A DNA stretch of 35,486 nt from Oscillospiraceae bacterium (GTDB lineage: Bacteria; Bacillota; Clostridia; Oscillospirales; Oscillospiraceae). The notes beneath the pieces were generated by a model. That model was not told the DNA's origin, searched no databases, and worked only from the letters and a program-made list of their open reading frames with translations. Location: positions 1 through 35,486 of the forward strand of contig CACYLY010000048.1 in the NCBI GenBank assembly GCA_902775355.1, written 5' to 3'. The translations under genes were made by a program, and so were the position numbers. This document shows positions 2,496 to 24,203 of this stretch, piece by piece (the stretch's first letter is position 1; every line of letters begins with the position of its first letter).

Positions 2496-4298
<1,803 letters not shown>

Positions 4299-4314
4299 TG
4301 GGATCCCTTCTTTC

Positions 4315-4887
4315 TTAATAAAGCTTTGCGGCCTGCTTTTTCATGACGCCCTCGGCGAGCCGCATGCTGAGGATCGCCACGGGGATCGTGAGGACAAGCA
4401 TGATAACAAGCAACGGTATGTTCCGGATCACCGGCATCATCTTGTCCGCGTATCCCGCCGGCATTTCCTCGACAGCCGCGGCAAGGGAGCCCTCCGTATC
4501 CGTCCACCAGTGGGCGGAATAGGCGTAAAAGGAAAAGGCGAAGGGGATAAAGCTCAAGCGGACGCCTTTGCGCGTATCATAGCCGCTCCGCCGCCGGATG
4601 CATTCCGCAAGCAGGGCCAGAACGATGAGGCCGACGATGAAAGGAAGATTTCCTTCCCCCGCGATCAGACCGACGACCAGGACAAAGCCGTTGAGCAGCA
4701 GCGCCGCGCCGAAGCCCTGGATGTTCGCGGCCGCATAGAGATAGACAAAACCGAAGAGGATCGGCACAAAGGTGCCGGCATAGGCGTAGCAGGCCGGATG
4801 GATCAGGCCGCAGCTGGAGGCGAGGATGAACAGCGCGGCATAGATCAGCAGGGCCAGCAGGATTTGGAACACGGGGCGTTTTTTCAT
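4315..4887 (-). CDS. MptD/Trep_Strep-type ECF transporter S component
   Basis: A 190-residue very hydrophobic protein with five or six membrane segments, resembling the MptD / Trep_Strep family of putative substrate-binding (S) components of energy-coupling-factor importers. Length fits the family (about 180-200). Start ATG 4887 is preceded by AGAGGTG; a possible upstream in-frame ATG at 4905 has no ribosome site. S components normally need an EcfT membrane protein and EcfA ATPases; none is encoded nearby, so it must either share a complex encoded elsewhere or work with the two adjacent ABC half-transporters. The palindrome GTTAGACATCTTTAAC (4910-4925) lies directly upstream, matching the one at the regulator promoter, so this gene probably has its own metal-responsive control. 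Confidence 0.75.
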   Translation of the reverse strand: MKKRPVFQILLALLIYAALFILASSCGLIHPACYAYAGTFVPILFGFVYLYAAANIQGFGAALLLNGFVLVVGLIAGEGNLPFIVGLIVLALLAECIRRRSGYDTRKGVRLSFIPFAFSFYAYSAHWWTDTEGSLAAAVEEMPAGYADKMMPVIRNIPLLVIMLVLTIPVAILSMRLAEGVMKKQAAKLY

Positions 4888-4909
4888 GAGACACCTCTCT
4901 TCCATATTA

Positions 4910-4925
4910 GTTAGACATCTTTAAC
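4910..4925. promoter_or_regulatory. Putative DtxR/MntR-type operator, copy 2
   Basis: GTTAGACATCTTTAAC matches the operator core at 5502-5517 at 15 of 16 positions and lies 22 bases upstream of the S-component start. GTTA and TAAC form the arms. I infer that the nearby metal-dependent repressor binds here; no separate -10/-35 pair is obvious. Confidence 0.6.
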
Positions 4926-4993: not shown

Positions 4994-5095
4994 CTACCGC
5001 GCTGTACAAACCAGCACCAGCACCACGACCGCGGCCGGAAGCCACACGTTCAGCAGCCTTCGTTTGAGCATGTTCCATGCAGCTTTGTTGTTCAT
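4994..5095 (-). CDS. 33-residue single-span membrane peptide coupled to the DtxR-type regulator
   Basis: ATG at 5095 overlaps the TGA of the regulator gene (ATGA), and GGAGG lies at 5103-5107 inside that gene at a suitable distance. The peptide begins MNNKAAWNMLKRRLLNVW, continues with a hydrophobic stretch rich in Val, Leu and Ala (about residues 18-31) and ends CTAR. It reads as a short positively charged head followed by one membrane helix. The overlap and ribosome site argue for real translation. It could be a small accessory subunit of the transporter, a sensor partner for the regulator, or a leader peptide; no family is recognised. Other start choices in different frames give only unconvincing products. 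Confidence 0.55.
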   Translation of the reverse strand: MNNKAAWNMLKRRLLNVWLPAAVVVLVLVCTAR

Positions 5096-5466
5096 AGGGA
5101 AACCTCCTTGCCGATAAAATGAATGATTCTGTCAAGTGTTTCATCACTGACGATGTGCTCCATCCCGCAGGCGTCTTTCTCTGCGGTTTCCGGGCATACG
5201 CCCAAAGAGACCAGCAGCGTCTTCAGCGCGCGATGCCTCTCGCAAATCTGCTTCGCCGCGGCGCGACCGGTATCCGTCAGAGAGAGCCGCTTATCTTCGT
5301 CCATCGTCAGATAGCCGGCCTCACGCAGGCGCTTCATGGCCCGGCTGACGCTGGGCTTGGTCACGTGCAGCGTTTCCGCCACGTCCAGCGAACGCACAGA
5401 CCCGTTTTCCCTGTGCAGGATCAGGATCGTTTTCAAATAATCCTCCGTGGCCCTGGGCAGATGCAT
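5092..5466 (-). CDS. DtxR/MntR-family metal-dependent transcriptional regulator
   Basis: A 124-residue protein with an N-terminal winged helix-turn-helix (about residues 1-65; TKPSVSRAMKRL is the recognition helix) and a short helical dimerisation and metal domain. Candidate metal ligands by alignment from memory with MntR/DtxR are Asp9, His78, Cys100, Glu103 and His104; Cys100 is DtxR-like (iron type), while the equivalent of MntR Glu11 is Lys12. There is no C-terminal SH3/FeoA domain, making it a short form. ATG 5466 has GGAGG about ten bases upstream. It is first in the minus-strand operon, and the palindrome between its -10 and start points to autoregulation. Expected role: repress transport and linked genes when iron or manganese is plentiful. 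Confidence 0.9.
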   Translation of the reverse strand: MHLPRATEDYLKTILILHRENGSVRSLDVAETLHVTKPSVSRAMKRLREAGYLTMDEDKRLSLTDTGRAAAKQICERHRALKTLLVSLGVCPETAEKDACGMEHIVSDETLDRIIHFIGKEVSL

Positions 5467-5498: not shown

Positions 5499-5524
5499 AT
5501 GCGGTTAGATATCTTTAACCGCAT
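5499..5524. promoter_or_regulatory. Putative metal-regulator operator, copy 1
   Basis: ATGCGGTTA and TAACCGCAT are 9-bp perfect arms around the 8-base centre GATATCTT. The site begins at the -10 box of the regulator promoter and covers the transcription start, an ideal place for repression. Its core (5502-5517) recurs upstream of the S-component gene. Confidence 0.7.
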
Positions 5525-5657: not shown

Positions 5658-5725
5658 CCCGTAGCGCCGACCATTGGTCGGCGGACCGGCGCGGGACGAC
5701 GCCGGGCAATGCCCGGCGCTACGGG
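5658..5725. repeat. 68-bp two-hairpin element with terminal inverted repeats, copy A
   Basis: CCCGTAGCGCCG at the left end and CGGCGCTACGGG at the right end are perfect 12-bp inverted repeats. Inside lie two hairpin cores, GCCGACCATTGGTCGGC and GCCGGGCAATGCCCGGC. An identical 68-bp copy lies at 5868-5935 and a relative at 21900-21981. It looks like a REP- or MITE-like intergenic repeat. Confidence 0.85.
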
Positions 5726-5867
5726 CATCGCCGTGCATCGGCGGGCTGTCGAGGGCGCCAGCCCCTACAAAGGAGGACGCAGCGCCGGCACAAATCGGCG
5801 GGAGGGGCAAGCCCCTCCCCTACGATGTCATGGCTTCGCGGGCGAAGCGAGTCGAAGGATCTTTATC

Positions 5868-5935
5868 CCCGTAGCGCCGACCATTGGTCGGCGGACCGGC
5901 GCGGGACGACGCCGGGCAATGCCCGGCGCTACGGG
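5868..5935. repeat. 68-bp two-hairpin element with terminal inverted repeats, copy B
   Basis: Identical over all 68 bases to 5658-5725, in the same orientation, 210 bases downstream of it. Perfect identity in non-coding DNA suggests recent duplication or gene conversion. Confidence 0.85.
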
Positions 5936-6152
5936 CGTGGAGTGGGACGGGCGGGCGCGACCTGATGATGCCCCTACGGCGGAGGATGGTCGACCCGCGT
6001 AGGGCGCGATGCCCTCATCGCGCCGCAGATCATGCACGCGGGCGCGGAACGGCGGGCGACCAAAGGTCGCCCCTACGGGCGCGAGGCGTCGGCGCTTCCC
6101 GGCGGGCTGCGGCACGGCGTTCCAGTTTTTCCGAAAAAAACGCAAATCGGTA

Positions 6153-6181
6153 TTTTCAAACGGAAAGAGATGTGCTATACT
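6153..6181 (+). promoter_or_regulatory. Promoter of the fourteen-gene cluster
   Basis: TTTTCA (6153-6158) and TATACT (6176-6181) are 17 bases apart, a reasonable sigma-A promoter in an AT-rich window just before the MBL gene. Confidence 0.6.
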
Positions 6182-6186
6182 CCGTA

Positions 6187-6202
6187 GTTAGAAATTACTA
6201 AC
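6187..6202. promoter_or_regulatory. Putative metal-regulator operator, copy 3
   Basis: GTTAGAAATTACTAAC has arms GTTAG/CTAAC and lies five bases past the -10, the same geometry as at the regulator promoter. It agrees with the GTTAGAYATCTTTAAC sites at about 12 of 16 positions on the best strand. Binding by the same repressor is an inference. Confidence 0.45.
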
Positions 6203-6250: not shown

Positions 6251-7120
6251 ATGTCAAAGAAGGATTCCGAAGATCAGAAAAAGTCCATGAGCGTGATGTT
6301 TCGCGGCCGGGCGATCTTCAAGCCCCTGAACACCGGCTGGATCGACGAGCACGTGGCCTGCGTGCGGGAATGGATCGCCAACATTTTCTTTTATACCAAA
6401 AACGGCAGGACCGTCATGATCGACGCCGGGTACAACTACGACCGTCTGCGGGAGAAGATGGGCTGGCTGGACATCGATCCCGCCTCCATCCAGCACATCC
6501 TCATCACCCATCAGGACACCGACCACGTGGGGGCGCTGGAGAGAGACAGCGAGGGGCTGTTTCGGAACGCAGCGATCTACCTCAGCGAGATCGAAAACCG
6601 CTATCTGACCGGCGAGGCGCGGCGCAGGGTCATCCACGGGCTCTACAAGCTGCCGCTGTTCAAGACCGACAATGAGCGCGTCCTTCTCAAAGACGGACAG
6701 ATCCTGGACATCGACGGGATCAAGATCGAGTGCATCCTCTGCCCCGGTCACACCTGGGGCCACATGGTCTATCTGATCGACGACGCGTATCTCTTTACCG
6801 GCGACACGATCTGGTTCAGGGCGGACGGCGGCTACAGCTTCCTGTCCACCCTGGCCGAGGACAACAAGCTGGCGGTCCGGTCCCTGGCCGCGCTGGAAAT
6901 GCTGCTGCGCGCCCGGAAGGGGCCTATCAAGATCATCACCGGCCACACCGGCTGGACGGACGATCTGGACGCCGCCTTCTGGCACCGGACGGAGCTGTGC
7001 CGTCCCTTTACAAAGAAGTATACGGACCCCGAGGCGCCCTACGACGGCTACGAGGAGGCGGACGACACCGAGGAAAAGGCCCGCAGGGTCCCCTTGGCGA
7101 AGAAGGTGTTTCGCCCATGA
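6251..7120 (+). CDS. MBL-fold metallo-hydrolase
   Basis: A 289-residue metallo-beta-lactamase-fold protein. Metal motif at residues 86-92 reads THQDTDH, so the usual second His of HxHxDH is Asp89; later ligands are His167 in PGHT, Asp185 in TGDT and His232 in GHTG. This keeps a plausible two-metal centre like the glyoxalase-II-like subgroup, where HQD variants are found. ATG 6251 follows AAGGAG. It heads the plus-strand cluster, and its stop overlaps the next start (ATGA). The substrate is unknown; hydrolysis of a thioester or other ester would fit the two alpha/beta hydrolases in the same operon. Confidence 0.88.
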   Translation: MSKKDSEDQKKSMSVMFRGRAIFKPLNTGWIDEHVACVREWIANIFFYTKNGRTVMIDAGYNYDRLREKMGWLDIDPASIQHILITHQDTDHVGALERDSEGLFRNAAIYLSEIENRYLTGEARRRVIHGLYKLPLFKTDNERVLLKDGQILDIDGIKIECILCPGHTWGHMVYLIDDAYLFTGDTIWFRADGGYSFLSTLAEDNKLAVRSLAALEMLLRARKGPIKIITGHTGWTDDLDAAFWHRTELCRPFTKKYTDPEAPYDGYEEADDTEEKARRVPLAKKVFRP

Positions 7121-7752
7121 AAGTCCCGGGGATGCCCGCGGGGATGTGGGCGCTTTTTTCCGGGAGCTTTCGGAGCAAGCTGACGGAGGTCCTGGGCTAC
7201 GACCGCTCCACGGCGGCGGAGATCACGAAAAAAGCCCGCGGCAAATACCGGGAGCTGATCAAAAAGCTCCCCGACTTTGAAAAGGGCGACCGTTTTCAGA
7301 TGAACATCGTCAGCTGCGCCATGCTTTCGGCTTTCGTGCTGAGCATGCCGAAACGCCCAAGCGTGGACGAGCTGACGGCATACTACGCCGCGGCCATGAT
7401 GACCGGGCCGATGCGGGCGTTCTGCCGCCGGATGGGAAGGCAGAAGTTCAGTGAAAAGGACGTGGCGGGCATGAAGCGCACCGCCGCCCTCAACGCGGCG
7501 GACCGCAACCCCTATTCCTGGAACATGGACTTTCTGCCCTACCCCGACGGCAGCGGCTATGAGGCCCGCTTCTCGAAGTGCGGCATCTGCACGCTGATGG
7601 GCGAGCTGGGGCTTCGGGATCTGGTGCCCGCCATGTGCCGCCTGGATTACAGCATGAGCGAGGCGGGCGGCGCGGACGAATTCGTGCGCGAGCACACCCT
7701 GGCCTCGGGCGGCCCCTACTGCGACTGCGGCTACAAGAAGAAAGGGAGATAA
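7117..7752 (+). CDS. L-2-amino-thiazoline-4-carboxylate hydrolase-family protein, copy 1
   Basis: A 211-residue protein resembling the ATC hydrolase family, named for opening of an aminothiazoline ring on the way to cysteine. Visible are the Cys-rich C-terminal half: KCGICTLMGELG, then AMCRLDYSM and the terminal CDCGYKKKGR. Most family members in Clostridia have no tested activity, so the name is only a family label. The start overlaps the MBL stop (ATGA), showing translational coupling. A second family member closes the cluster at 15163; duplicates at both ends of one operon suggest that this chemistry is central to the pathway. Confidence 0.75.
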   Translation: MKVPGMPAGMWALFSGSFRSKLTEVLGYDRSTAAEITKKARGKYRELIKKLPDFEKGDRFQMNIVSCAMLSAFVLSMPKRPSVDELTAYYAAAMMTGPMRAFCRRMGRQKFSEKDVAGMKRTAALNAADRNPYSWNMDFLPYPDGSGYEARFSKCGICTLMGELGLRDLVPAMCRLDYSMSEAGGADEFVREHTLASGGPYCDCGYKKKGR

Positions 7753-7756
7753 AACG

Positions 7757-8008
7757 ATGATCAAAACCACATTGAAGATCGACGGGATGATGTGCTCCAT
7801 GTGCGAGGCGCATATCTGCGAGGTGATCCGCAAGGCCGTCCCCGGCGCGAAGAAGGTCTCCGCCTCCCATACGAAAGGCGAGGCGTCCTTCCTGTCGGAA
7901 GAGCCGGCAGATGAGAGCGCGTTGAAAAACGCCGTCGCCGCCACGGGCTACAGCTGCCTGGCCGTGGACGCCGCGCCCTATGAGAAGAAAGGCTGGTTCC
8001 GGCGGTGA
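7757..8008 (+). CDS. Heavy-metal-associated (HMA) domain protein
   Basis: An 83-residue single HMA domain with the metal-binding loop GMMCSMCEAH (Cys13, Cys16), the ferredoxin-like beta-alpha-beta pattern and a C-terminal GYS element. Free-standing HMA proteins usually bind Cu(I) or another soft metal and pass it to a partner; here the extra Met next to each Cys would favour a soft metal. GGGAGATAAAACG precedes the ATG. It lies in the middle of an operon of methyltransferases rather than beside a P-type ATPase, which is unusual and hints at a metal-linked pathway. Confidence 0.88.
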   Translation: MIKTTLKIDGMMCSMCEAHICEVIRKAVPGAKKVSASHTKGEASFLSEEPADESALKNAVAATGYSCLAVDAAPYEKKGWFRR

Positions 8009-8841
8009 AGTATCACATCGAGAAAAACACCGTCCAGGAGACGCTGATCATCCCGCTTTTCGGGCGGCTGGTGTGCTCGGAGCGCTTCCCGCAGCTTTTC
8101 TCCGACCCCGAAGCCAAACGGATCTGCGATTCCCTGGACTACGACTTTGCCGAAAAGCGGAAGAAGATGGAGTCCCCGGCGGGGCTCTTCGGCGCGCTGG
8201 AGGTGGCCCAGCGGCAGTACGATCTTTGCTGCGAGGTCAAGGCGTATCTGAAGGAGCACCCGAAGGCCGCCGTGGTCAATCTGGGCTGCGGGCTGGACGA
8301 CAGCTTTTCCAAGGTGGACAATGGCCTCTGCCGGGGCTATAACCTGGATTTTGCGGACGTGATCAAGCTGCGCAACGAGCTGCTGCCCGCCGGGGAGCGG
8401 GAAACGAATCTCGCCTGCGACCTCAACGACTTGAAGTGGATGGACGCCATCGACGCGAAAAACGGCGCGGTGTTCTTCGCCGCGGGCGTGTTCTACTACT
8501 TCAAAACCGAGGACGTGAAGGCCCTCTTTGCCGCCATGGCCGAGCGCTTCCCCGGCGCGGTGCTGGCCTTCGATTCCTGCAACGAGCGGGGCGCGAAGCT
8601 GATGCGCAAAACCTGGCTCAAGGAGGCTGGGATCACGGAGGTGAGCGCCTTTTTCTCCCTGGAGGATGAAAAAGAGCTGGAAGCGTGGAGCGGGCGCTTT
8701 GCCTCGGTCACGGCGAAAAGCTACATGCGCGGCTATCGGGATATCTACCGGGACGTCGGCCTGTTTCACAAGCTGATGATCCGCTTCTGCGACAGTCTGG
8801 TGAACATGAAGATCGTGAAGATCGAATTCAAGGGGGCGTGA
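8005..8841 (+). CDS. Class I SAM methyltransferase, LCMT/TcmP-like
   Basis: A 278-residue methyltransferase resembling the leucine carboxyl methyltransferase / TcmP O-methyltransferase family. Motif I reads VVNLGCGLDD (about residues 90-99), followed by NLDFADV as the acidic ribose-binding loop and ACDLNDLKW. Members methylate carboxyl or hydroxyl groups of proteins, polyketides and other small molecules. The start is GTG at 8005, overlapping the HMA stop (GTGA). Three more methyltransferases follow in the operon, all different in sequence, so several positions of one product may be methylated. Confidence 0.85.
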   Translation: MKYHIEKNTVQETLIIPLFGRLVCSERFPQLFSDPEAKRICDSLDYDFAEKRKKMESPAGLFGALEVAQRQYDLCCEVKAYLKEHPKAAVVNLGCGLDDSFSKVDNGLCRGYNLDFADVIKLRNELLPAGERETNLACDLNDLKWMDAIDAKNGAVFFAAGVFYYFKTEDVKALFAAMAERFPGAVLAFDSCNERGAKLMRKTWLKEAGITEVSAFFSLEDEKELEAWSGRFASVTAKSYMRGYRDIYRDVGLFHKLMIRFCDSLVNMKIVKIEFKGA

Positions 8842-8843
8842 AC

Positions 8844-9524
8844 ATGACGCGGCATGAGGAGATCCGGCGATCCTACAAGGAGCTCGGCCGGATCGGGAAC
8901 CTCTACGACGGGATCATCACCCGCTCCACGCTGCTGGGCAAGCTCATGGACGGCCTGATCTGGGGGCTGGACAAGGAGCTCTCGGCCCGATGGATCGAGG
9001 ACGCCCTGGCCCCGATCCCGGCGGACTTTTCGGGCAGCCTGCTGGAGGTGCCGGTGGGCACGGGCGTGCTGACCATGCCCCTCTACGCCTCGCTGCCGGA
9101 GGCCGGGATCACCTGTCTCGACTACTCCGCGGACATGATGGAAAACGCGAAAAAACGCGCCGCGGCCATGGGGCTTTCCCACGTGGCCTTTGTGCAGGGC
9201 GATGTGGGGGCGCTGCCCTTTGCGGACGAGAGCTTTGATCTGGTCCTCTCGCTCAACGGCTTTCACGCCTTTCCCGACAAGGACGCGGCCTTCCGGGAGA
9301 CCTGCCGGGTCCTGAAACCGGGAGGCATATTCTGCGGCTGCTTCTACATCGCCGGGCGCTTTGCGCGCACCGACTGGTTTGTGCGGCACATGTACGTCCC
9401 CAAGGGCTTCTTCACCCCGCCCTTCGAGACGGAGGAAAGCCTGAAAGAGCGGCTGCGGGAGCTGTATTCTCAGGTGGAGGTCCATTCGGTCCGCGCGGAG
9501 GGAATATTCAAATGTGTGAAATGA
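8844..9524 (+). CDS. Class I SAM methyltransferase, UbiE-like
   Basis: A 226-residue methyltransferase. Motif I is altered to LLEVPVGTGVLT (normally ExGxGxG, here Pro replaces the first Gly), followed by LDYSADMM, QGDVGALPF and the post-motif VLKPGGIFCG. The fold is clear but the substrate is not. ATG 8844 is just after the previous stop, with GGGGGCG upstream; longer readings would run back into the preceding gene. The gene overlaps the start of the DUF6796-like membrane gene by 13 bases. Confidence 0.85.
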   Translation: MTRHEEIRRSYKELGRIGNLYDGIITRSTLLGKLMDGLIWGLDKELSARWIEDALAPIPADFSGSLLEVPVGTGVLTMPLYASLPEAGITCLDYSADMMENAKKRAAAMGLSHVAFVQGDVGALPFADESFDLVLSLNGFHAFPDKDAAFRETCRVLKPGGIFCGCFYIAGRFARTDWFVRHMYVPKGFFTPPFETEESLKERLRELYSQVEVHSVRAEGIFKCVK

Positions 9525-10213
9525 AAGCGAAAACCGAAAAAAGGGCCTTTCTCTTCGGCTTCGCCGCGCTGTTTCTGTGCGGGATCGGGGACTGGCTGAT
9601 CGGCTACGATCCCCCGGGGGGCGAGCCGCTGATCTACGGCATCAGCAACACGGCCATCACCGAAGTGCCGAGCTGGTATTATATCCTCTCCCTGGGCTTT
9701 GGCATCCTGTCCGGCTTCGGCTGCAGGGCCTTTGCCCCGGCGATGCTCGAGGTGCTGGACGAGCTCGGCGTCCCCAAAACGTCCAGGGCGTACCGGGCCT
9801 TTCGCTTCGGCCTGGCCTCCGCGCCGATGATGTTCGTCTCCTTCCACGCGGCCTGCTGCATCGTGCTGCTGCTGATGCAGGCGGCCCTCCGCGCGGGGCT
9901 GGACGTGCAGGCAGCCAACGATGTGTTCCTGCTCCCGGTGGCGGCGTCCCTTCTGCCCTTCCTCCTGTGGTGCTTTTTGTGCGACATTCCGGTGACGGTG
10001 GGCTATGTTGTCCTTGTGCTGAAGGGCCGGCTGAAGCTCCCGAAGGCGGCGGTGGTCTGCTGCCCCCTGGGCATGAGCCTGCTGGCAAAGGTCCTCGGCG
10101 CGGTGCTGCTGGCGGCAGACAGCAAAGTCGCCTTCCTCACCGCCTGCGGGGAGTCCTGGGGCTGGGCCTTCCTGTGTCTGGCCTTTTACGCGGCGTCAAA
10201 AAAGAGGAGGTAA
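9512..10213 (+). CDS. DUF6796-like membrane protein, copy 1
   Basis: A 233-residue protein with about six membrane helices. The N-terminal GIGDWLIGYDPPGGE followed by YGISNTAI is a likely family signature, and the second copy at 13013 has the matching GDYCMGIEPKDSYAISGMI. I believe both belong to DUF6796, with no known function. GGAGGG at 9497-9502 fits the ATG at 9512; an in-frame ATG at 9521 gives an ATGA overlap and is the alternative. Its place between methyltransferase and hydrolase genes suggests a membrane enzyme or carrier for the cluster's product. Confidence 0.75.
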   Translation: MCEMKAKTEKRAFLFGFAALFLCGIGDWLIGYDPPGGEPLIYGISNTAITEVPSWYYILSLGFGILSGFGCRAFAPAMLEVLDELGVPKTSRAYRAFRFGLASAPMMFVSFHAACCIVLLLMQAALRAGLDVQAANDVFLLPVAASLLPFLLWCFLCDIPVTVGYVVLVLKGRLKLPKAAVVCCPLGMSLLAKVLGAVLLAADSKVAFLTACGESWGWAFLCLAFYAASKKRR

Positions 10214-10217
10214 TCTC

Positions 10218-11000
10218 ATGCAATTCACGGAATTCGGAAAGCAGGACGGCAAAACCCTGCTGCTCCTGCCGGGCACGGCCTGCACCTGGCAGCTCAATTT
10301 CAAAAACGTGGTGGACGAGCTGGCGGAGAAATATCATCTCATCGCCGTCAATTACGACGGTTTCGAGGGCGACCCCGCGGTCGTTTTCACCGACGTGCCC
10401 ACGGTCACGGAGAAGATCGAGGATTACATCCTGGAAAAGCACGGCGGCCGGGTGGACGGGGCCTACGGCTCCTCCCTGGGCGGCAGCTTTGTCGGGCTGC
10501 TGATCCAGCGAAAGCGCGTCCACATCGACCACGGCTTCATCGGCTCCTCGGATCTGGACCAGGGCGGGAGGCTGACTGCCCGGCTGCTGACCATGATCGT
10601 CGGTCCCACGCTCTCCGGCGCCTGCACCAGCGAGAAAAAGCGCGCCAAGCTCAAGGCCAAGCTGCAAAAGAAAGGCGCCATCGGCGACGGGGACAAGTCC
10701 CTGGACTTCGCCAATGCTTTCATCGACAACATGAAAACCCTCAACCCGAAGACGATCAGCCGCCAGTTTTACTCCGACTATGTCACGCCCCTGGACGACG
10801 ACATCCACGTGGAGGGCACCACGGTGCACGTTATCTACGCGCTGCAGATGGGCGAAAAGTACGGCAGGCGCTACCGTCAGCACTTCCGGGACCCGGACAT
10901 CCACGAGTTCGACATGAAGCACGAGGTCTGGCTCTATGACGATACCTGGCGGAAGCCGGTGATGGACAGCATTGATACGTGCATGGAGGCGGAAGCATGA
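10218..11000 (+). CDS. Alpha/beta hydrolase
   Basis: A 260-residue alpha/beta-hydrolase-fold protein: the oxyanion region LLLLPGTACTWQLNF near the N-terminus, nucleophile elbow GSSLGGSF (about residues 89-96, serine in GxSxG) and a possible late catalytic His in DMKHEVW. A cap-like insertion lies between. The AGGAGG at about 10204-10209 fits the ATG at 10218. It is followed by a second, unrelated hydrolase in ATGA overlap. Ester, amide or thioester substrates are all possible. Confidence 0.82.
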   Translation: MQFTEFGKQDGKTLLLLPGTACTWQLNFKNVVDELAEKYHLIAVNYDGFEGDPAVVFTDVPTVTEKIEDYILEKHGGRVDGAYGSSLGGSFVGLLIQRKRVHIDHGFIGSSDLDQGGRLTARLLTMIVGPTLSGACTSEKKRAKLKAKLQKKGAIGDGDKSLDFANAFIDNMKTLNPKTISRQFYSDYVTPLDDDIHVEGTTVHVIYALQMGEKYGRRYRQHFRDPDIHEFDMKHEVWLYDDTWRKPVMDSIDTCMEAEA

Positions 11001-11911
11001 CGCTGAAATACGAACTCCTGAAACGGATCGTGAAGGCTGCGAATATCAAGAAGCGCTGGGCCGGCATGAGCACGGAGGAGCTGCTGGAGAACCGGCGGCG
11101 GGAGAACGCGAAAAACCGGATCCCCGAGCTGAAAGACGAGGCTTTTGTCATCAGCCGCATTGAGGTGATGGGCTGCCCGGTGCTGAAGCTGATCCATAAG
11201 GAAAAGACAGACCGGGCCAACCTCTTCCTGATCGGCGGCGGCATGATCAGCGCGCCGCGTCCCGGCTCCGTCAAAAAGGCGCTGCGCTTCGCCAGGGAGA
11301 CGGGGCTCGACCTCTTCGTCCCCTATTATCCCCTCTGCACGGACTACCCGCTGACCAGGGCCTACGAGATGATCCACGAGACCTACCGGGTCATGCTGCG
11401 GGACTACGCGGCGGAGCACATCTCCGTGCTCGGCACCTCGTCGGGCGGCAATCTGGCCCTGGGCATGGTGCCCTACATCCACGACGGCCACGGCGACACG
11501 CCCATGCCCGCGTACATCATGACCATCTCCCCCGGCACCTGCGTGGACACGGAGGAGGAATGGCAGAGGATGCTGGAGCTGGAGGAAAAGGACGTGGCGA
11601 TCCCGGCGGCGTACATGAAAACCGCCGTGGAGATCATGCGCCATGGGGACGACAGCGTCCCCGACTACATGCTCTGGCTGCAGCGGGGCGACTTCACGCA
11701 CTGCCCGAAGGTGAGCTTCATCTACGGCAGCGACGAGACGCTGTACGCCTGCGCGCCCTCCTTCGAGGCGGCCATGAAGAAGTACGGCGTGGACTACGAG
11801 ATGATCGTCGGGGAGGGGATGTTCCATTGCTATCCCGTCTTCCCGCTCTGCAAGGAAGCAAAAGAGGGCTGGGCGCTGATGATCCGGAAGATGAAGGAGA
11901 ACACGAAATGA
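10997..11911 (+). CDS. Alpha/beta hydrolase fold-3 (HSL/carboxylesterase-like)
   Basis: A 304-residue hydrolase of the hormone-sensitive-lipase-like type. The oxyanion motif HGGG is replaced by IGGGM, then comes the elbow GTSSGGNLA with the nucleophile, the acid near FIYGSDE and the final His in GMFHCY. Family members cleave short acyl esters; small-molecule deacetylation is typical. The ATG at 10997 overlaps the preceding TGA and has GGAGG twelve bases upstream; an in-frame ATG at 10979 is less likely. Confidence 0.85.
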   Translation: MTLKYELLKRIVKAANIKKRWAGMSTEELLENRRRENAKNRIPELKDEAFVISRIEVMGCPVLKLIHKEKTDRANLFLIGGGMISAPRPGSVKKALRFARETGLDLFVPYYPLCTDYPLTRAYEMIHETYRVMLRDYAAEHISVLGTSSGGNLALGMVPYIHDGHGDTPMPAYIMTISPGTCVDTEEEWQRMLELEEKDVAIPAAYMKTAVEIMRHGDDSVPDYMLWLQRGDFTHCPKVSFIYGSDETLYACAPSFEAAMKKYGVDYEMIVGEGMFHCYPVFPLCKEAKEGWALMIRKMKENTK

Positions 11912-12498
11912 AGCTCTGTCCCAGGGAATTCAAGGCCATGCAGTCGCTCTGGCGCAGGTGGTACATCCGCAAGATCGAGCTCGCAACCTTCAAAAAGTTC
12001 GGCCTGCGGATCGAGGGCCGGGACATCCTCGAGGTGGGCTGCGGCTCGGGCTACGCCGCCTCGCTCCTTACGGCGGAAGCCCCGCGCAGCTACACGGGGC
12101 TGGACATCATGCCGGAGCAGCTGGCGCTGGCCCGGGAGAGGAAGCTTCCGAAAGCCCGCTTCGTGGAGGGCAGCGCGGACGACCTCTCCGCCTTCCCAGA
12201 CGGAAGCTTCGACGCGGTGCTGGACTTCTGCATCCTGCACCACGTAGAGGGCTGGCGGGCTTTCTTCGACGAGTGCCGCCGGGTGCTGAAGGACGGGGGC
12301 TGCATCTATATCGCCGATCTCTCCCGGCGCTGCATCCACCTGGTGGACGCCGTTCTGGGCTGGGATCACGCCGAGGAGGCCCTGTTCAGCTTTGAGGAGC
12401 TGGAGCGGGAGGCGAACAGCCGCGGCTTTCGCACCGTGAAGAAGGCCATCGACCTGGGGCTGGAGGGCTATTTCCGCTTCGAAAAAGAACGTCAGTAA
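11908..12498 (+). CDS. Class I SAM methyltransferase
   Basis: A 196-residue methyltransferase with textbook motifs: ILEVGCGSGYAAS (motif I), GLDIMPEQ (acidic loop), EGSADDL, FDAVLDFCILHHV (motif IV) and VLKDGGCIYI. It is likely a small-molecule methyltransferase, with no visible feature to name its substrate. The start overlaps the preceding stop (ATGA). Confidence 0.88.
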   Translation: MKLCPREFKAMQSLWRRWYIRKIELATFKKFGLRIEGRDILEVGCGSGYAASLLTAEAPRSYTGLDIMPEQLALARERKLPKARFVEGSADDLSAFPDGSFDAVLDFCILHHVEGWRAFFDECRRVLKDGGCIYIADLSRRCIHLVDAVLGWDHAEEALFSFEELEREANSRGFRTVKKAIDLGLEGYFRFEKERQ

Positions 12499-12513
12499 GG
12501 GAGAATGTGAGCT

Positions 12514-13002
12514 ATGCCCGGCAAAATCGTTATAGAAGGCCTGCTGCTCGGGGCGCTGCTGGTCGGCTTCTGCGCCCTCGGCATTCGCAGGGGCGCGGTC
12601 AACATGGTCTTTCTGTACCATGTGGACGTGCAGGGGCGCTGCATCCAAAACGGCCTGATCACAAGAGAGCAGATCAGCCGGAACCGGCGTCTGTTCAAGG
12701 GCCTGGGCATTCCGGTCTACTTCGCCTTCGTCCTGGTCAGCGTCTACGCCGTCAACGGCGCGCGAGGCTTTTGGCCCGGCTTCTGGCAGAGCTTCGCCAT
12801 CCTCTCCATCGTGAATCTGATCGACCGGCTGGGGATCGACGCCTGGTGGGTCGGGCACACAAAGGCCTGGGTCATCCCCGGCACGGAGGACCTGCGGCCC
12901 TATATCGACCGGAAGGACAAGCTGGGCAAGTGGCTGATCGGCACGGTGGGATTTGCCATCCTCTCGGCGGCTCTGTCCGGGATCATGGCGCTGATATTGT
13001 GA
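12514..13002 (+). CDS. Integral membrane protein, paralogue pair member 1
   Basis: A 162-residue membrane protein with about four helices and a soluble loop containing TKAWVIPGTEDLRPY and DRKDKLGKW. The same arrangement (GFW...F, then D...V...K...P.T.D, then basic K/R-L before the last helix) is seen in the product of 13744, so the two look like distant paralogues. No family is recognised. GGGAGAATGTGAGCT precedes the ATG. Confidence 0.7.
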   Translation: MPGKIVIEGLLLGALLVGFCALGIRRGAVNMVFLYHVDVQGRCIQNGLITREQISRNRRLFKGLGIPVYFAFVLVSVYAVNGARGFWPGFWQSFAILSIVNLIDRLGIDAWWVGHTKAWVIPGTEDLRPYIDRKDKLGKWLIGTVGFAILSAALSGIMALIL

Positions 13003-13012
13003 GGTGTTTTTT

Positions 13013-13747
13013 ATGACAAAAGAGGAACTGCAAAAGGTGTACCGCCGGATGCTCTGGGTCATCCCCGGCATGCTGCTGGCCATGGTCGGCGACTACTGCA
13101 TGGGGATCGAGCCGAAGGACAGTTATGCCATTTCCGGGATGATCTCCTCGGGCTGGCTGACCATCGCCGACTGGCGGATCGCGGTGTCCAACATCGGCGG
13201 CCTGCTCGGCACCGTCTGCTACACCCTCGCCGCGCTGCCCTTCGCGGCCTTTCTGAAGACCCTGCTCCCCGGATGCGGGGACAAATGGGATCGGCGGCTG
13301 CTGAAGCTCTATATCGCCGGGCTGATCCTGGGTGTCATGTGCTTTCTGTACTTCCATCTGGAATGCGGCACGCTGATCCACAATTTCAATCTGCTCTACG
13401 ACGCCGCCGGAGGCGATACGGAGCTTGCGGTGAAAATGTGGGACCGCTCCTATCTGGTTCAGATCGTTCCCTATTGGTCGACCTTCTTCGCCTTCGAGCT
13501 TGCGATCCTGATCGGCTGGATCGCCCTGATCCTGCGGGGGACCTTCGCGCTGAAGAAAAGCTGGATCCTGGCCGCGCCGCTCGTCGTCGCCGGGATCGGC
13601 TACGTGCTGGAGCTGCTGATCCCCTGGCCCTTCAACGGCTTCGTCTCCGGCTTCGAGAGCTTCGGCTGGATCGTGATGTTCCTGGGCGGGAGAAAGCTCG
13701 TCCTGCGGGAAATGGAAAACCGGCGTACCGCGGAGGAAGAAGCATGA
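13013..13747 (+). CDS. DUF6796-like membrane protein, copy 2
   Basis: A 244-residue membrane protein with about seven hydrophobic segments. GDYCMGIEPKDSYAISGMI near residue 25 parallels GDWLIGYDPPGGEPLIYGIS in the copy at 9512, and both have a conserved histidine-containing helix in the middle (FHLECGTLIHN here, VSFHAACC there). ATG 13013 was preferred over the GTG at 13004 because GAGGTG stands 7 bases ahead. Function unknown; the duplication within one operon suggests two related subunits. Confidence 0.75.
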   Translation: MTKEELQKVYRRMLWVIPGMLLAMVGDYCMGIEPKDSYAISGMISSGWLTIADWRIAVSNIGGLLGTVCYTLAALPFAAFLKTLLPGCGDKWDRRLLKLYIAGLILGVMCFLYFHLECGTLIHNFNLLYDAAGGDTELAVKMWDRSYLVQIVPYWSTFFAFELAILIGWIALILRGTFALKKSWILAAPLVVAGIGYVLELLIPWPFNGFVSGFESFGWIVMFLGGRKLVLREMENRRTAEEEA

Positions 13748-14241
13748 TCGTCACGCTCGCCGTTCTGGCCTATGTCTGCGCGCTGTCCCTGTTCTATGTC
13801 ATCGTGATCCCGCCCCTGGCCCATACAAAGCTCTTTCTGCGCTTTTTGCCCCGGGACATGCGGGAGGCGGCGAAGGATCACCCCGATCCGCCCAGGAGGC
13901 GCCGCGTCCTCGGTTATCTGCTCACCGCGGTCTTTGCCCTCGCGTATGTGGGCGGGCTCGTCCTCATCGGCGCGGACGCCCTCCTGTCCGGCTGCGGATT
14001 CTGGCGGATCTTCGGGCGGTATCTGCTGTTTTTCTACGGATACAAGGTTTTCGATATCCTCGTCCAGGATCAATATATCGTGATCAAAAAGAAGTACTTT
14101 CTGCGCTTCTTCCCCGAGACGAAGGACTGCAAAAGCTGGGACGACCGCAGCTTCAACAAGAGCAATCAGTTGAAGCGCCTGATCGCCTTCCCCTTCGTCT
14201 GCGCCCTGATGGCGTGGCTAACCGTATGGATCGGAAAATAG
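13744..14241 (+). CDS. Integral membrane protein, paralogue pair member 2
   Basis: A 165-residue membrane protein with about four helices. The soluble stretch KVFDILVQDQYIVIKKKYF followed by RFFPETKDCKSWDDRSF corresponds to a like-placed loop in the product of 12514. The start overlaps the preceding stop (ATGA). No known family is recognised. The alternation of this type with DUF6796-like genes suggests an original two-gene unit that was duplicated. Confidence 0.7.
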   Translation: MIVTLAVLAYVCALSLFYVIVIPPLAHTKLFLRFLPRDMREAAKDHPDPPRRRRVLGYLLTAVFALAYVGGLVLIGADALLSGCGFWRIFGRYLLFFYGYKVFDILVQDQYIVIKKKYFLRFFPETKDCKSWDDRSFNKSNQLKRLIAFPFVCALMAWLTVWIGK

Positions 14242-14264
14242 AAATGATACAGGAGGCAAAGCTT

Positions 14265-15056
14265 ATGAAACCGGATTACAAAAACTGGATGCCCAAGGGC
14301 ATGGTGCTCGGGACGCTGGCGGGCGCGGTGGGCTGCTTCGGCCTGGCCGCCCTCTGCGGCTGCAGGGGGCTCATGAAAAACGAGACCGCGAAAGCCGTGA
14401 CGACGGGCGTTCTGCTGCTGGCAGGCGCGGCGGCGGGCGGCGCGGCGCTGTGGATGGCGCTTTTATACCGCGCCTTTTCCTACGATGGGAAGCGGCAGAT
14501 GTCCCGGCAGGTCATCGATGGGATCGCGGAGCATGTGACGCTCCCGGAGGGCGGCGTCGGGCTGGACGTGGGCTGCGGCAGCGGCGCGCTGACCATCGCC
14601 TGCGCCAAGCGCAATCCCCAGGCGCATTTTATCGGCCTGGACCGCTGGGGCAAGGAGTACGCCTCCTACAATAAGCCCCTGTGCGAGGCAAACGCCAAGG
14701 CAGAGGGCGTTTCCAACACGGAGTTCCGGCAGGGTGACGCGCTGAAGCTCGACTTTCCGGACGAGAGCTTTGACGCGGTCACCAGCAACTACGTCTATCA
14801 CAACATCCCCAGCCGCGACCGGCAGAAGATCCTCCTTGAGACGCTGCGGGTGCTGAAAAAGGGCGGGACCTTCGCGCTGCACGACATTTTCTCGAAGGCC
14901 AAATACGGCAACATGCAGGCCTTTGTCCGTCTGCTGCGCGGCATGGGCTATGAGAAGGTCGAACTGATCGACACCACGAGCGGCATGTTCATATCCCCGC
15001 GGGAGGCGAAGTGGATGGCCCTCTCCGGCTCCGCGCTGCTGGTGGGGAGAAAGTAA
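14265..15056 (+). CDS. Membrane-anchored class I SAM methyltransferase
   Basis: A 263-residue protein. Residues about 10-70 contain two hydrophobic helices with small, Gly/Ala-rich faces; the rest is a methyltransferase with GLDVGCGSGALTIA, GLDRWGKEYA, RQGDALKLDF, FDAVTSNYVYHNI and VLKKGGTFAL. The membrane anchor suggests a lipid-like or membrane-bound substrate. ATG 14265 is chosen for the AGGAGG at 14251-14256; an in-frame GTG/ATG-type extension back to 14214 overlaps the previous gene. The codons after its stop stay open for a further 29 residues (see findings). Confidence 0.85.
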   Translation: MKPDYKNWMPKGMVLGTLAGAVGCFGLAALCGCRGLMKNETAKAVTTGVLLLAGAAAGGAALWMALLYRAFSYDGKRQMSRQVIDGIAEHVTLPEGGVGLDVGCGSGALTIACAKRNPQAHFIGLDRWGKEYASYNKPLCEANAKAEGVSNTEFRQGDALKLDFPDESFDAVTSNYVYHNIPSRDRQKILLETLRVLKKGGTFALHDIFSKAKYGNMQAFVRLLRGMGYEKVELIDTTSGMFISPREAKWMALSGSALLVGRK

Positions 15057-15162
15057 GGCGCCTGCAACCGGAAAACGCCTTTGACCCACATCCTGCTCTT
15101 CCCGGTCGCCGCCGCGGCCCCGGCGTGGGTCTGCACCTTGTTCTGAAGAAGGAGATTTGATT

Positions 15163-15771
15163 ATGAACGACGCGGAAAAGATCATGCGGAAGAAGGCCAT
15201 CATCAAGACCGAGCTGGACAAGGCCCTGCCGAAAGCCCTGAGCGACGCCCTGTGGCGGGAGGCGACGGCAAGGCTCGACGGATTGCTGGCCCGGTACAGC
15301 GCGCTTCCCAAGGGCGTGCATATCCACACGGACAGCCGGATCCTTCCCTCCGCGGCGATCTATCTGACCGTGAAGGAGGCCGTCGGGCCGGAGCGGGCGT
15401 ACCGGATCATCGAGGACGCCGCCGTTCGGGGCTGCGCGAAGATCGAGAAGAAGCTGCAGCGGCTGATGAAGCTGCCGGGGATGCCCAGCCTGTTCCTCAA
15501 GGCCTGGGACCCGCTGACGAAGAAGCTCTTCGCGTCAGGAAACGGCTTTCAGAATGTATTCTATCCGAAGAAAAAGAGCGAGTACCGGATGGACGTTATC
15601 TCCTGTCCGTATTGCCGCACCTTTACGGAACTGGGCTGCCCCGAGCTCACGAAGATCTTCTGCGAAAACGACGAGCGGATCTACGGCCGTCTGCCGGGGC
15701 TGTGCTTCGAGCGGACGGGAACCCTCGGCAAAGGCGCCGAGCGCTGCGATTTTTGCCTCAGGAGGAGATAA
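15163..15771 (+). CDS. L-2-amino-thiazoline-4-carboxylate hydrolase-family protein, copy 2
   Basis: A 202-residue member of the same family as the protein at 7117. Shared features are the C-terminal cysteine cluster CPYCRTFTELGCPELTKIFC and the ending GAERCDFCLRRR, and the helical N-terminal half. AAGGAGAT precedes the ATG. It is the last gene of the cluster: a strong terminator follows at 15837. The 106-base gap before it is the largest in the operon. Which reaction it performs is unknown. Confidence 0.72.
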   Translation: MNDAEKIMRKKAIIKTELDKALPKALSDALWREATARLDGLLARYSALPKGVHIHTDSRILPSAAIYLTVKEAVGPERAYRIIEDAAVRGCAKIEKKLQRLMKLPGMPSLFLKAWDPLTKKLFASGNGFQNVFYPKKKSEYRMDVISCPYCRTFTELGCPELTKIFCENDERIYGRLPGLCFERTGTLGKGAERCDFCLRRR

Positions 15772-15836: not shown

Positions 15837-15872
15837 AGCCCGCCGTTTCTCCCCGAAGCGGCGGGCTGTTTT
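15837..15872 (+). terminator. Terminator of the fourteen-gene cluster
   Basis: AGCCCGCCG (15837-15845) and CGGCGGGCT (15859-15867) are perfect complements, followed by GTTTTCT. Confidence 0.85.
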
Positions 15873-22527: not shown

Positions 22528-23202
22528 TTATTTTTCAATGAGCACCGCAAAGCCGTGCTTCGCGGGCAGAAGCCTCGCCCCATGGCCCCGGGTCAGCTTT
22601 TCGATTTCCGTCGGCGAATAGGGATGGAAGACCATGCCCTTCCACTTGCCGGCGGTGTAGATATAGTCCCCCTCCGGGCTCACCCGGTGGGGTTCCGCTT
22701 CGTATTCCTCGTCCGTCTCGTCCAGGCTCAGCAGCAGACAGCCGCCGGGCCGGAGGATCCGCAGCAGCTCGGCAAGGGCCTCCCGGGCCTCCCGGACGGG
22801 CAGGTGGTCCAGCACCTCCCGGGCCAGCACCGCGTCAAAAGCCCCGGCCGGAAAGCCCGAGGCCCGGACGTCCGCCCTCCGGAAATCCGCGGCGGGATAC
22901 CCGCGCTCCCGAAGCAGGGCTTTCGCCAGCTTTACAGCCTCCGCCGAGAGGTCGAAGCCGGAGACCTGAAAGCCGCCGGCCGCCAGCTTCAGGGCGCAGA
23001 GTCCGCAGCCGCAGCCCGCGTCGCAGACGGAAACCGCGCCCCGCTCCCGCAGACGAGCGAGAAGGGCGTCGTCTCCGGGATCGCCCGAAGCGGCGGCGCA
23101 GGCAGCGATCCGCGCCGGATCGACCTGCCTCCAGGACGCCTCCCAAAATGCGCGCTCCGTCATGCTCTCCATCCTTTCCAGCGGGACTTCTCCCGTGGTC
23201 AT
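22528..23202 (-). CDS. Class I SAM methyltransferase
   Basis: A 224-residue methyltransferase with motif I VCDAGCGCGLCALKLA, FDLSAEA, FRRADVRASG, FDAVLAREVLDHL and LRPGGCLLLS. ATG 23202 overlaps the stop of the radical SAM gene (ATGA), showing coupling; in-frame ATGs at 23172 and 23163 are alternatives. Neighbouring radical SAM and peptidase genes suggest a shared modification pathway, but no precursor peptide is visible. Confidence 0.83.
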   Translation of the reverse strand: MTTGEVPLERMESMTERAFWEASWRQVDPARIAACAAASGDPGDDALLARLRERGAVSVCDAGCGCGLCALKLAAGGFQVSGFDLSAEAVKLAKALLRERGYPAADFRRADVRASGFPAGAFDAVLAREVLDHLPVREAREALAELLRILRPGGCLLLSLDETDEEYEAEPHRVSPEGDYIYTAGKWKGMVFHPYSPTEIEKLTRGHGARLLPAKHGFAVLIEK

Positions 23203-24203
23203 TCTCTTCTGCTGCCGCTCTGCCGCTCGTCGGTGACGTCGTAAACGGAGACGCCGTGCTCCGCGGCGTACAGGCGGCGATAATGGGCAAACAGATCCCG
23301 CTGCCGGTAGAAGCGTCCGCCCTTCGGATCGCCGTAGCGCGCCGCCAGCTCCGGCAGCGTGGGGAAGGCGGCGTAGTAGGCCTCGTCCAGGGCCTCGGTC
23401 TCGGCAAGGATCTCCCCCGGCGCCATGGCCTCCCAGCGCTCGATGTTGTCCGGGCGCAGGGAGAGGAGCAGAGAGCGGCGCTTCTCGGGGACAAAGGCTC
23501 CCTCTTCCAGCCATTCCCGTTCCGGCCGGTAGAGCTGCCGGTTGAGGAGACGCCGGGTCTCCGGGGAGAGCGTTTCCCAATCCGCCTCCGAAAAGCGGAT
23601 AGGCTCCAGCGCGATCCCCCGGCCCTCCTGGTGGGGCACGAAAAGACGGATCTTGCCGCAGCCGGTCTCCCGGCGCAGCAGCTCGATCAGCGCGTCCGCC
23701 TGCGGCGCGCTCTCCGCGCTCAGGGGGATCCCGGCGCTGGTTTCCAGTCCGGTCTCCCGGGCGGCCCGCAGCATCCGCAGCAGCAGCTCGAAGTCGCCCC
23801 GCCGGCCGGCGAAGGCGTCATGGTATTCCCGCAGCCCGTATACGGTGAAATTCAGGTGCTTCACGCCCTCCTCCGCCAGCAGCCGGGTCAGGGACTCGCA
23901 TTCCTCCCGGCTGCGCATCCGCATCCCGTCGCACTGGAGAAACGTGGCCTGAGGGCTGCCGATCTCCCGCAGAAAGGCCAGCGCCTCCCGCGGGCGGGGA
24001 TGCTCCATGGCGTAGCCGAAGGCAAAGGAGAAGCGCAGCTCCGGCCGGTTTTCGTCCATCCAGCGCTTGAATCGGCGGGCAAAGTCCACGCTGCGCTCCC
24101 AGGGAAGGCCCAGGGGCTTTCCGTCCCAGTCCAGCAGGCAGTAGCGGCAGCGGCAAGCGCAGGGCACGCAGAGGGTCTGCAGCAGAACAGATTCCGTCTT
24201 CAT
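23199..24203 (-). CDS. Radical SAM protein
   Basis: A 334-residue protein with the CxxxCxxC cluster as CACRCRYC near residues 15-22 for a [4Fe-4S] centre. It is followed by a TIM-barrel-like half (GLETSAGIPLS, KIRLFVPHQEGRG) and a C-terminal region without extra obvious cysteine clusters. GGAGAC precedes ATG 24203. It sits 12 bases behind the peptidase E gene and overlaps the methyltransferase start. Such stand-alone proteins are often annotated as activating or modifying enzymes; its substrate is unknown. Confidence 0.85.
   Translation of the reverse strand: MKTESVLLQTLCVPCACRCRYCLLDWDGKPLGLPWERSVDFARRFKRWMDENRPELRFSFAFGYAMEHPRPREALAFLREIGSPQATFLQCDGMRMRSREECESLTRLLAEEGVKHLNFTVYGLREYHDAFAGRRGDFELLLRMLRAARETGLETSAGIPLSAESAPQADALIELLRRETGCGKIRLFVPHQEGRGIALEPIRFSEADWETLSPETRRLLNRQLYRPEREWLEEGAFVPEKRRSLLLSLRPDNIERWEAMAPGEILAETEALDEAYYAAFPTLPELAARYGDPKGGRFYRQRDLFAHYRRLYAAEHGVSVYDVTDERQSGSRRE

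Follow-up and report, generated by a model that had tools for sequence, protein, structure and literature searches.

We analyzed the first 35,486 nucleotides of contig CACYLY010000048.1 (Oscillospiraceae bacterium, assembly GCA_902775355.1, forward strand; hereafter the window) and describe a 14-gene operon at positions 6251–15771 that very probably belongs to an iron-starvation response. We propose that this operon is repressed by a DtxR-type regulator encoded beside it, and that its enzymes process a ligand imported by the neighboring transporter to release iron or recycle the ligand. For this explanation as a whole, we estimate a probability of about 0.42. The structure of the operon, iron-box-like palindromes and their placement, the linkage with iron transport genes, the likeness of the transporter to known systems, and the fold of the ATC_hydrolase-family (ATC) proteins support it. 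As judged from the sequence, the parts belong to known families and the regulation to a known type, and the combination appears new to us. The gene set is undescribed in the papers searched (most subscription journals lay outside the coverage, and some queries were loose). The original prediction, made from the letters and reading frames alone, had found no NRPS, PKS or RiPP precursor in the operon and had inferred a pathway that makes, modifies or degrades a metal-binding or membrane-linked small molecule, a reading that our results support in part. Our literature searches turned up no characterized pathway with the same set.

Fourteen open reading frames (ORFs), as called on the window and numbered g01–g14 in their order along the + strand, fill the region (Table 1). 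Seven of the 13 junctions overlap by 4 to 28 bases, five have gaps of 1–15 bases, and one has a gap of 106 bases. Matches to Pfam above the curated cut-off were obtained for 11 of the 14 genes: one metallo-β-lactamase (MBL), two ATC_hydrolase, one HMA, one LCM, three class I methyltransferases, two DUF6796 and one Abhydrolase_3. The ORF and Pfam calls and the terminator at 15837–15867 thus bear out the earlier description of 14 packed genes with stop/start overlaps and one terminator. Promoter and terminator sites come from simple consensus scans. TTG at 15157 was considered as the start of the last gene (g14), and ATG at 15163 is more likely.

The regulatory argument begins with a palindrome of the form GTTAG-N6-CTAAC, in which the half-site spacing is as found within the DtxR/IdeR iron box. 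Box-like palindromes stand at all three promoters of the locus, those of the operon, the DtxR gene and the MptD-ABC genes. The perfect box occurs at two sites in the 2,861,293-base assembly (none for the reversed control): ahead of this operon and, at a distance of 29 bases, ahead of a fused FeoA-FeoB gene, whose FeoA and FeoB domains were both confirmed. With this common box, the operon falls into a DtxR-type regulon that also includes feoAB, and it is because feoAB shares the box that we take the metal to be iron. A link to metal is strongly supported, with iron the most likely metal.

The same pattern was then counted beyond the window from which it had been read. Relatives were collected with an alignment of LCM orthologs as the query; at 1e-15 it had matches in 54 of the 394 genomes of the order, and a scan of named genomes gave at least 578 relatives. 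Our counts rest on the best 80 of these, in which the LCM protein is 80–92% identical to that of the window; they describe near relatives, and many of the loci are cut by contig ends. In the window plus the 80 named relatives (1,256,081 bases), TTAG-N6-CTAA had 144 matches, compared with a mean of 5.95 (standard deviation 2.2, largest 9) in 20 dinucleotide-preserving shuffles. A gene start of a labeled family lies nearby (–60 to +350 bases) for 125 of the 144 boxes, an unlabeled frame only for 16, and neither for three. The nearest labeled gene was FeoA in 15 cases, DUF2325 in 11, ATC in 10 (plus four by similarity only), MBL in nine, DtxR in eight, HMA and LCM in seven each, DUF3793 and ABC in six each and TetR in five, in addition to others. 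The flanking G and the flanking C are each present in 109 of the 125 boxes, which gives the longer form GTTAG-N6-CTAAC. The box also precedes several differently ordered versions of the gene set.

The published DtxR/IdeR box TTAGGTTAGSCTAACCTAA contains four repeats (PMC10317159), and TTAG-N6-CTAA corresponds to the distance from an outer repeat to the opposite inner repeat. The locus further resembles a DtxR/IdeR regulon in that the regulator has both DtxR domains (Fe_dep_repress 50.0 bits and Fe_dep_repr_C 63.7 bits; cut-offs 26 and 27) and that the boxes lie just past the –10 box at two promoters. It differs in having one half-site pair at 6187–6202, where the full box spans 19 bases and has four repeats, and in that its closest named relatives here are Oscillospiraceae metagenome-assembled genomes (MAGs), not Actinobacteria. 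The metal control assumed in the original prediction finds strong support in the boxes at three promoters, the box before FeoA-FeoB, and the Feo, ZIP and DtxR neighbors in relatives.

The divergent genes include two half-size ATP-binding cassette (ABC) subunits. In phmmer searches against solved structures, the top-ranked chains for both subunits are tandem eukaryotic full-length transporters, almost all of them matched in two stretches. Of the half-size chains, the subunit at 2496–4298 is closest to YbtP (6p6i_A, 6.5e-90) and then IrtA (8.6e-87) within the best 60 of 187 matches, and that at 752–2566 to YbtQ (6p6i_B, 1.7e-82; 8vsi_B, 3e-82) within the best 60 of 208. The transporter had previously been called YbtPQ-like, and this holds against the solved half-size transporters. 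Like the siderophore importers YbtPQ and IrtAB, it is an adjacent pair of half-size subunits with an exporter fold; here an iron-box-like site stands upstream of the ABC genes. Unlike in those systems, an MptD/Trep_Strep-like S component lies beside the pair, and the assembly has no Condensation match. The S component reached 53 bits with the MptD family model TIGR02185 and missed its curated cut-off (76.45). Literature searches on DUF6796, or on Trep_Strep together with an ABC transporter, found no paper.

Table 1 Features of the locus and their basis.
Feature	Position	Strand	Basis
Half-size ABC transporter, nearest half-size solved chain YbtQ	752–2566	–	PF00664/PF00005
Half-size ABC transporter, nearest half-size solved chain YbtP, then IrtA	2496–4298	–	PF00664/PF00005
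MptD/Trep_Strep-like energy-coupling factor (ECF) S component	4315–4905	–	TIGR02185, E 4.6e-14, 53 bits
One-mismatch box upstream of MptD-ABC genes	4910–4925		Pattern match
DtxR/MntR-family metalloregulator	5092–5466	–	PF01325 and PF02742 above cut-off
One-mismatch box, promoter of DtxR gene	5504–5519		3 bases past –10 box
DtxR-gene promoter TTGACA-16-TATAAT, full-consensus sigma-70	5550–5523	–	Consensus scan
Promoter-like TTTTCA-17-TATACT, extended TG, for the 14-gene operon	6153–6181	+	9/12 consensus positions
Perfect box GTTAGAAATTACTAAC	6187–6202		5 bases past operon –10 box
g01, metallo-β-lactamase-fold hydrolase (MBL)	6251–7120	+	PF00753, 56.1 bits
g02, ATC_hydrolase-family protein	7117–7752	+	PF14196, 85.5 bits (cut-off 28.1); structure model; three invariant Cys
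g03, HMA metal-binding domain protein with CSMCEAH	7757–8008	+	PF00403, 32.2 bits
g04, LCM-family (carboxyl/O-) methyltransferase, query for relatives	8005–8841	+	PF04072, 33.7 bits (cut-off 22.3)
g05, class I S-adenosylmethionine (SAM) methyltransferase	8844–9524	+	PF13649, 85.2 bits
g06, DUF6796 membrane protein	9512–10213	+	PF20599, 89.6 bits
g07, α/β-hydrolase-like protein	10218–11000	+	No Pfam match; relative L034:6199–7107 matches Abhydrolase_6
g08, hormone-sensitive-lipase-type (HSL) hydrolase	10997–11911	+	PF07859, 65.6 bits
g09, class I SAM methyltransferase	11908–12498	+	PF08241, 85.6 bits
g10, small membrane protein	12514–13002	+	Three hydrophobic segments; no Pfam match
g11, DUF6796 membrane protein	13004–13747	+	PF20599, 95.6 bits; helical bundle model
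g12, small membrane protein	13744–14241	+	Three hydrophobic segments; no Pfam match
g13, class I SAM methyltransferase, probably membrane-anchored	14214–15056	+	PF08241, 73.7 bits; two N-terminal hydrophobic segments
g14, second ATC_hydrolase-family protein	15163–15771	+	PF14196, 89.5 bits (cut-off 28.1)
Intrinsic terminator	15837–15867	+	13-pair stem and T tail

The ATC protein at 7117–7752 models as an H-NOX/V4R/TRAPP-like fold, with H-NOX, TRAPP and DmpR/PoxR as the nearest chains, and three Cys residues are invariant across the 46 rows of the ATC_hydrolase family alignment. The Pfam match, the three Cys residues and the model point to the ATC_hydrolase family (PF14196) together with the V4R (PoxR, MopR) and H-NOX domains as the closest known relatives. 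That PF14196 resembles HNOB and V4R and has the three-Cys cluster in common with them has been published (PMC5847659). A gene provisionally named ATC hydrolase, tolI, lies in the tetrapyrrole (tolyporphin) cluster; that cluster is cyanobacterial and is described as having clustered hem genes, P450s and sugar genes, unlike the 14 genes here, among which none of these is present (PMC8401325). The LCM protein at 8005–8841 has a profile match to LCMT1 (3iei, E 3.6e-4) and does not reach the narrower model TIGR00027 (29.1 bits, cut-off 93.55). The model of the DUF6796 protein at 13004–13747 is a helical bundle of high confidence (pLDDT 92.8) for which no clear structural counterpart was found, and five residues, among them one His and a Gly-Asp pair, are invariant in the 20 rows of its alignment.

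From these data we infer a pathway, in which repression by this DtxR protein, the transport direction, the kind of ligand and each of the enzymatic reactions are all part of the inference. Under iron shortage, the DtxR-like repressor would leave the box at 6187, and transcription would set in for the operon as well as for the divergently oriented genes of DtxR and the MptD/YbtPQ-like transporter. The transporter would import an iron-carrying, probably hydrophobic ligand; in the cytoplasm, this ligand or its metal may be bound by the ATC (H-NOX/V4R-like fold) and HMA proteins. The methyltransferases (with carboxyl-type methylation by LCM) and the hydrolases (acting on esters or lactones) would then alter the ligand, together with DUF6796 and the remaining membrane proteins, leading to iron release or ligand recycling. 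To our knowledge, the iron supply of strict gut anaerobes without recognized genes for siderophore synthesis or heme degradation is poorly understood. The set offers concrete, apparently iron-regulated and widely shared uncharacterized proteins (the LCM-type methyltransferase, the ATC/H-NOX-fold and DUF6796 proteins), and it could give a function to families that are now called unknown or are perhaps misnamed.

The enzymes might instead build a metallophore without NRPS (non-ribosomal peptide synthetase), PKS (polyketide synthase) or IucA/IucC: starting from central metabolites, LCM and the other methyltransferases would assemble a hydrophobic iron ligand or cap it, and the loaded ligand would return through the YbtPQ-like pair. 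The four SAM enzymes, the probably membrane-anchored methyltransferase (14214–15056), the iron boxes, the genes for ApbA-type reductases in 11 loci and BAAT-type acyl hydrolases in seven, and a mosaic variation resembling that of biosynthetic clusters all fit such synthesis. The assembly, estimated to be 87.5% complete, has no match to the Condensation domain of NRPS siderophore synthesis (PF00668) or to IucA/IucC of NRPS-independent siderophore synthesis (PF04183), so that a home-made ligand would need another route. However, neither the 14 genes nor the labeled neighbor families recurring in at least five loci include a ligase, a carrier protein or a known synthase, and compact relatives carry LCM with only ATC, HMA or ZIP. 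No recurrent exporter family was seen by eye either among these recurring families or among the neighbors in LCM operons. The likeness to importers together with this lack of a recurrent exporter favors processing; we consider it most likely that the enzymes alter an imported iron ligand, and less likely that they synthesize one.

Several observations weigh against import and processing under iron control. The best NCBIfam models for the regulator are those of MntR, under their cut-offs (PRK11050 105.7 bits, cut-off 153), so by sequence the metal may also be manganese. By count, the window holds no excess of the box (four matches with up to two mismatches versus 4.54 expected), and the one-mismatch pattern has five sites in the assembly versus 26 for the reversed control, indicating that the looser pattern as such is not over-represented. 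Three of these five sites are at this locus, and the fifth lies on contig C8 ahead of a frame that resembles a surface protein. The argument from the box rests on its placement and on the relatives, not on these counts. The four methyltransferases are easier to place in synthesis than in breakdown. In many relatives, LCM is accompanied by no more than ATC, HMA or ZIP, and a YbtPQ-type pair is lacking in the vicinity; in one locus (L177) a gene a little downstream of LCM looks, by eye, like RND/MMPL and could be an exporter.

The relatives differ widely in gene content. At 50% identity or more, three loci keep most of the operon in order: L117 with 13 of the 14 genes (a ZIP gene is inserted), L106 with 12 and L127 with 11. 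At least nine genes are retained in seven of the 80 relatives, and at most four in 49. Since 15 of the 80 stretches are shorter than 8 kb and others are cut, with 36 having 8 kb on both sides of the LCM gene, these retention counts are lower bounds. At the same threshold, the ATC gene g02 is present in 46 of the 80 relatives, HMA in 45, g05 in 39, MBL and g13 in 26 each, the g07 hydrolase in 25, HSL in 14, each ABC subunit in 11, and DtxR, g10 and g14 in 10 each; rarest are the two DUF6796 genes (four and seven), g09 (five), MptD (three) and g12 (two). Of the 36 relatives with both flanks, 26 have ATC, 24 have iron transport genes (Feo, ZIP, the ABC pair or P1B), 20 further methyltransferases, 19 hydrolases, 17 HMA, 10 MBL and nine DtxR; these are raw counts, taken without matched random loci as a baseline. 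Loci with the ABC pair are richer in nine accessory genes (mean 4.6, n = 10, versus 1.9, n = 26; Mann-Whitney p 0.008, kinship ignored). Compact versions have, with small variations, the arrangement DtxR / ATC-(HMA)-ZIP-LCM-methyltransferase / DtxR-FeoA-FeoA-FeoB (L140, L147, L151 and L153).

Such a mosaic raises the question of whether the set consists of unrelated accessory genes merely sharing a promoter and a neighborhood with iron uptake genes. The high turnover of gene content and an LCM tree that mixes family titles in places would agree with this, whereas the box stands before several differently ordered versions of the set, ATC, HMA, ZIP and LCM are recurrently adjacent, and three relatives retain 11 to 13 of the 14 genes in order; we regard an unrelated set as very unlikely. 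Because L117, L106 and L127 keep so many genes in order, the set goes beyond chance association. One fixed 14-gene pathway holds only in part, with nine or more genes kept in seven relatives and four or fewer in 49; the independent scattering that would have refuted the original prediction was not seen either. The pattern suggests modules that have recombined inside an iron-responsive island. Family labels are clustered on the LCM tree, with 14 changes versus a shuffled mean of 23.9 (as low in 0 of 200 shuffles), and the need for 14 changes where four are the possible minimum suggests some transfer.

The titles of the relatives name Oscillospiraceae/Ruminococcaceae, Lachnospiraceae, Blautia, Solobacterium, Christensenella and one Sphaerochaetaceae, and many of them sheep, goat, cattle, buffalo or roe deer gut sites. 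These taxon names are the submitters' titles, and MAG titles and bins may err. A version of the set is also present in Erysipelotrichaceae bacterium NK3D112 (L141), the sole title without a MAG or 'uncultured' label and so probably an isolate. The greedy choice of ORFs in relatives lost some genes (it missed MBL in the map of the window itself), and family counts cover 79 named loci, as the LCM gene of L158 was left out of its family. The named loci and those with G numbers are not independent sets, as L106/G006, L107/G013, L120/G015, L132/G002, L144/G027 and L173/G415 look like the same records.

Heme offers another ligand. SiaFGH is a heme importer, and BchM carries out propionate esterification; a literature search on SiaFGH found no paper. 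The operon could serve an oxygen-independent extraction of iron from imported heme or another tetrapyrrole without ChuW/HutW, in which the ABC pair imports the tetrapyrrole, the ATC proteins (H-NOX/V4R-like fold) hold it, LCM methyl-esterifies its propionates, and the hydrolases and methyltransferases alter it until iron reaches the HMA protein. Radical-SAM heme degradation proteins of the HutW/ChuW type gave four matches in the assembly, the best with 192.7 bits and all under the cut-off of 400. In other genera of the order, LCM paralogs (approximately 30% identical) occur with Shp, NEAT and ABC genes, and these heme uptake operons resemble the window in their ABC pair and in having an LCM-type gene. 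The ABC pairs beside Shp/NEAT are 75–79% identical to those of the window in L100 and L101 and approximately 50% in L099. A search for Shp was positive in 11 of the order's 295 genomes, and four of the 34 order-level LCM loci hold the gene (L099, L100, L101 and L105). An LCM gene lies near Shp in three of the 11 Shp loci (G118, G060 and G230); it was not found in the fetched stretch of the other eight (L186–L193), some of which are cut by contig ends, and in L193 the Shp query itself had no match. Shp (PF11545) had no match in the assembly of the window, and a tblastn search with a single Shp query likewise gave none near the 80 closest LCM relatives. These negatives make heme a minority reading for the operon, and we judge it improbable. 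In L100, a protein adjoining the heme uptake genes (3667–4506; family also in L083, L087, L099 and L101) combines a MarR-type helix-turn-helix with a NEAT-like domain, both below the Pfam cut-offs, and is a possible heme-sensing regulator of new architecture.

The least probable of the explanations weighed here is a ferrosome-type iron-storage membrane compartment, the membrane of which would be shaped by the membrane proteins, methyltransferases and lipase-like hydrolases. Families reminiscent of FezA and FezB, namely DUF6110 and a P1B-type ATPase, occur in eight and five relatives, respectively, one DUF6110 gene is the nearest labeled gene to a box, and the operon encodes several membrane proteins. 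However, the link is confined to a minority of relatives, neither gene is in the locus of the window, and the identity of DUF6110 with FezA is putative. No FezB-type P1B ATPase was found among the 14 operon genes and the four divergent genes, the part of the genome that was searched. FezA and FezB are needed for C. difficile ferrosomes (PMC12574912). DUF6110 and P1B-type ATPase genes near LCM, at L127:5475–5735 and L073:2074–4185, may be ferrosome-type.

Outside the operon, a further class I methyltransferase frame lies on the – strand of the window at 22528–23580, where it overlaps long + strand frames without a Pfam match. On contig C3 of the same assembly (G000), a DUF6796-like stretch with one stop (approximately 53388–54218) lies near MBL- and methyltransferase-like frames and may be the decayed remains of a second set. 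In one relative (genome G013), an opposite-strand frame between the orthologs of the 12514 and 11908 genes (L031:4310–5683) matches AMP-binding weakly (27.4 bits; cut-off 29.9). The stretch that separates the DtxR gene from the operon has two copies of a GC-rich repeat of 69 bases with inverted ends, at 5658–5726 and 5868–5936; a similar trace at the peptide level on contig C13 suggests that it may be a dispersed genome repeat.

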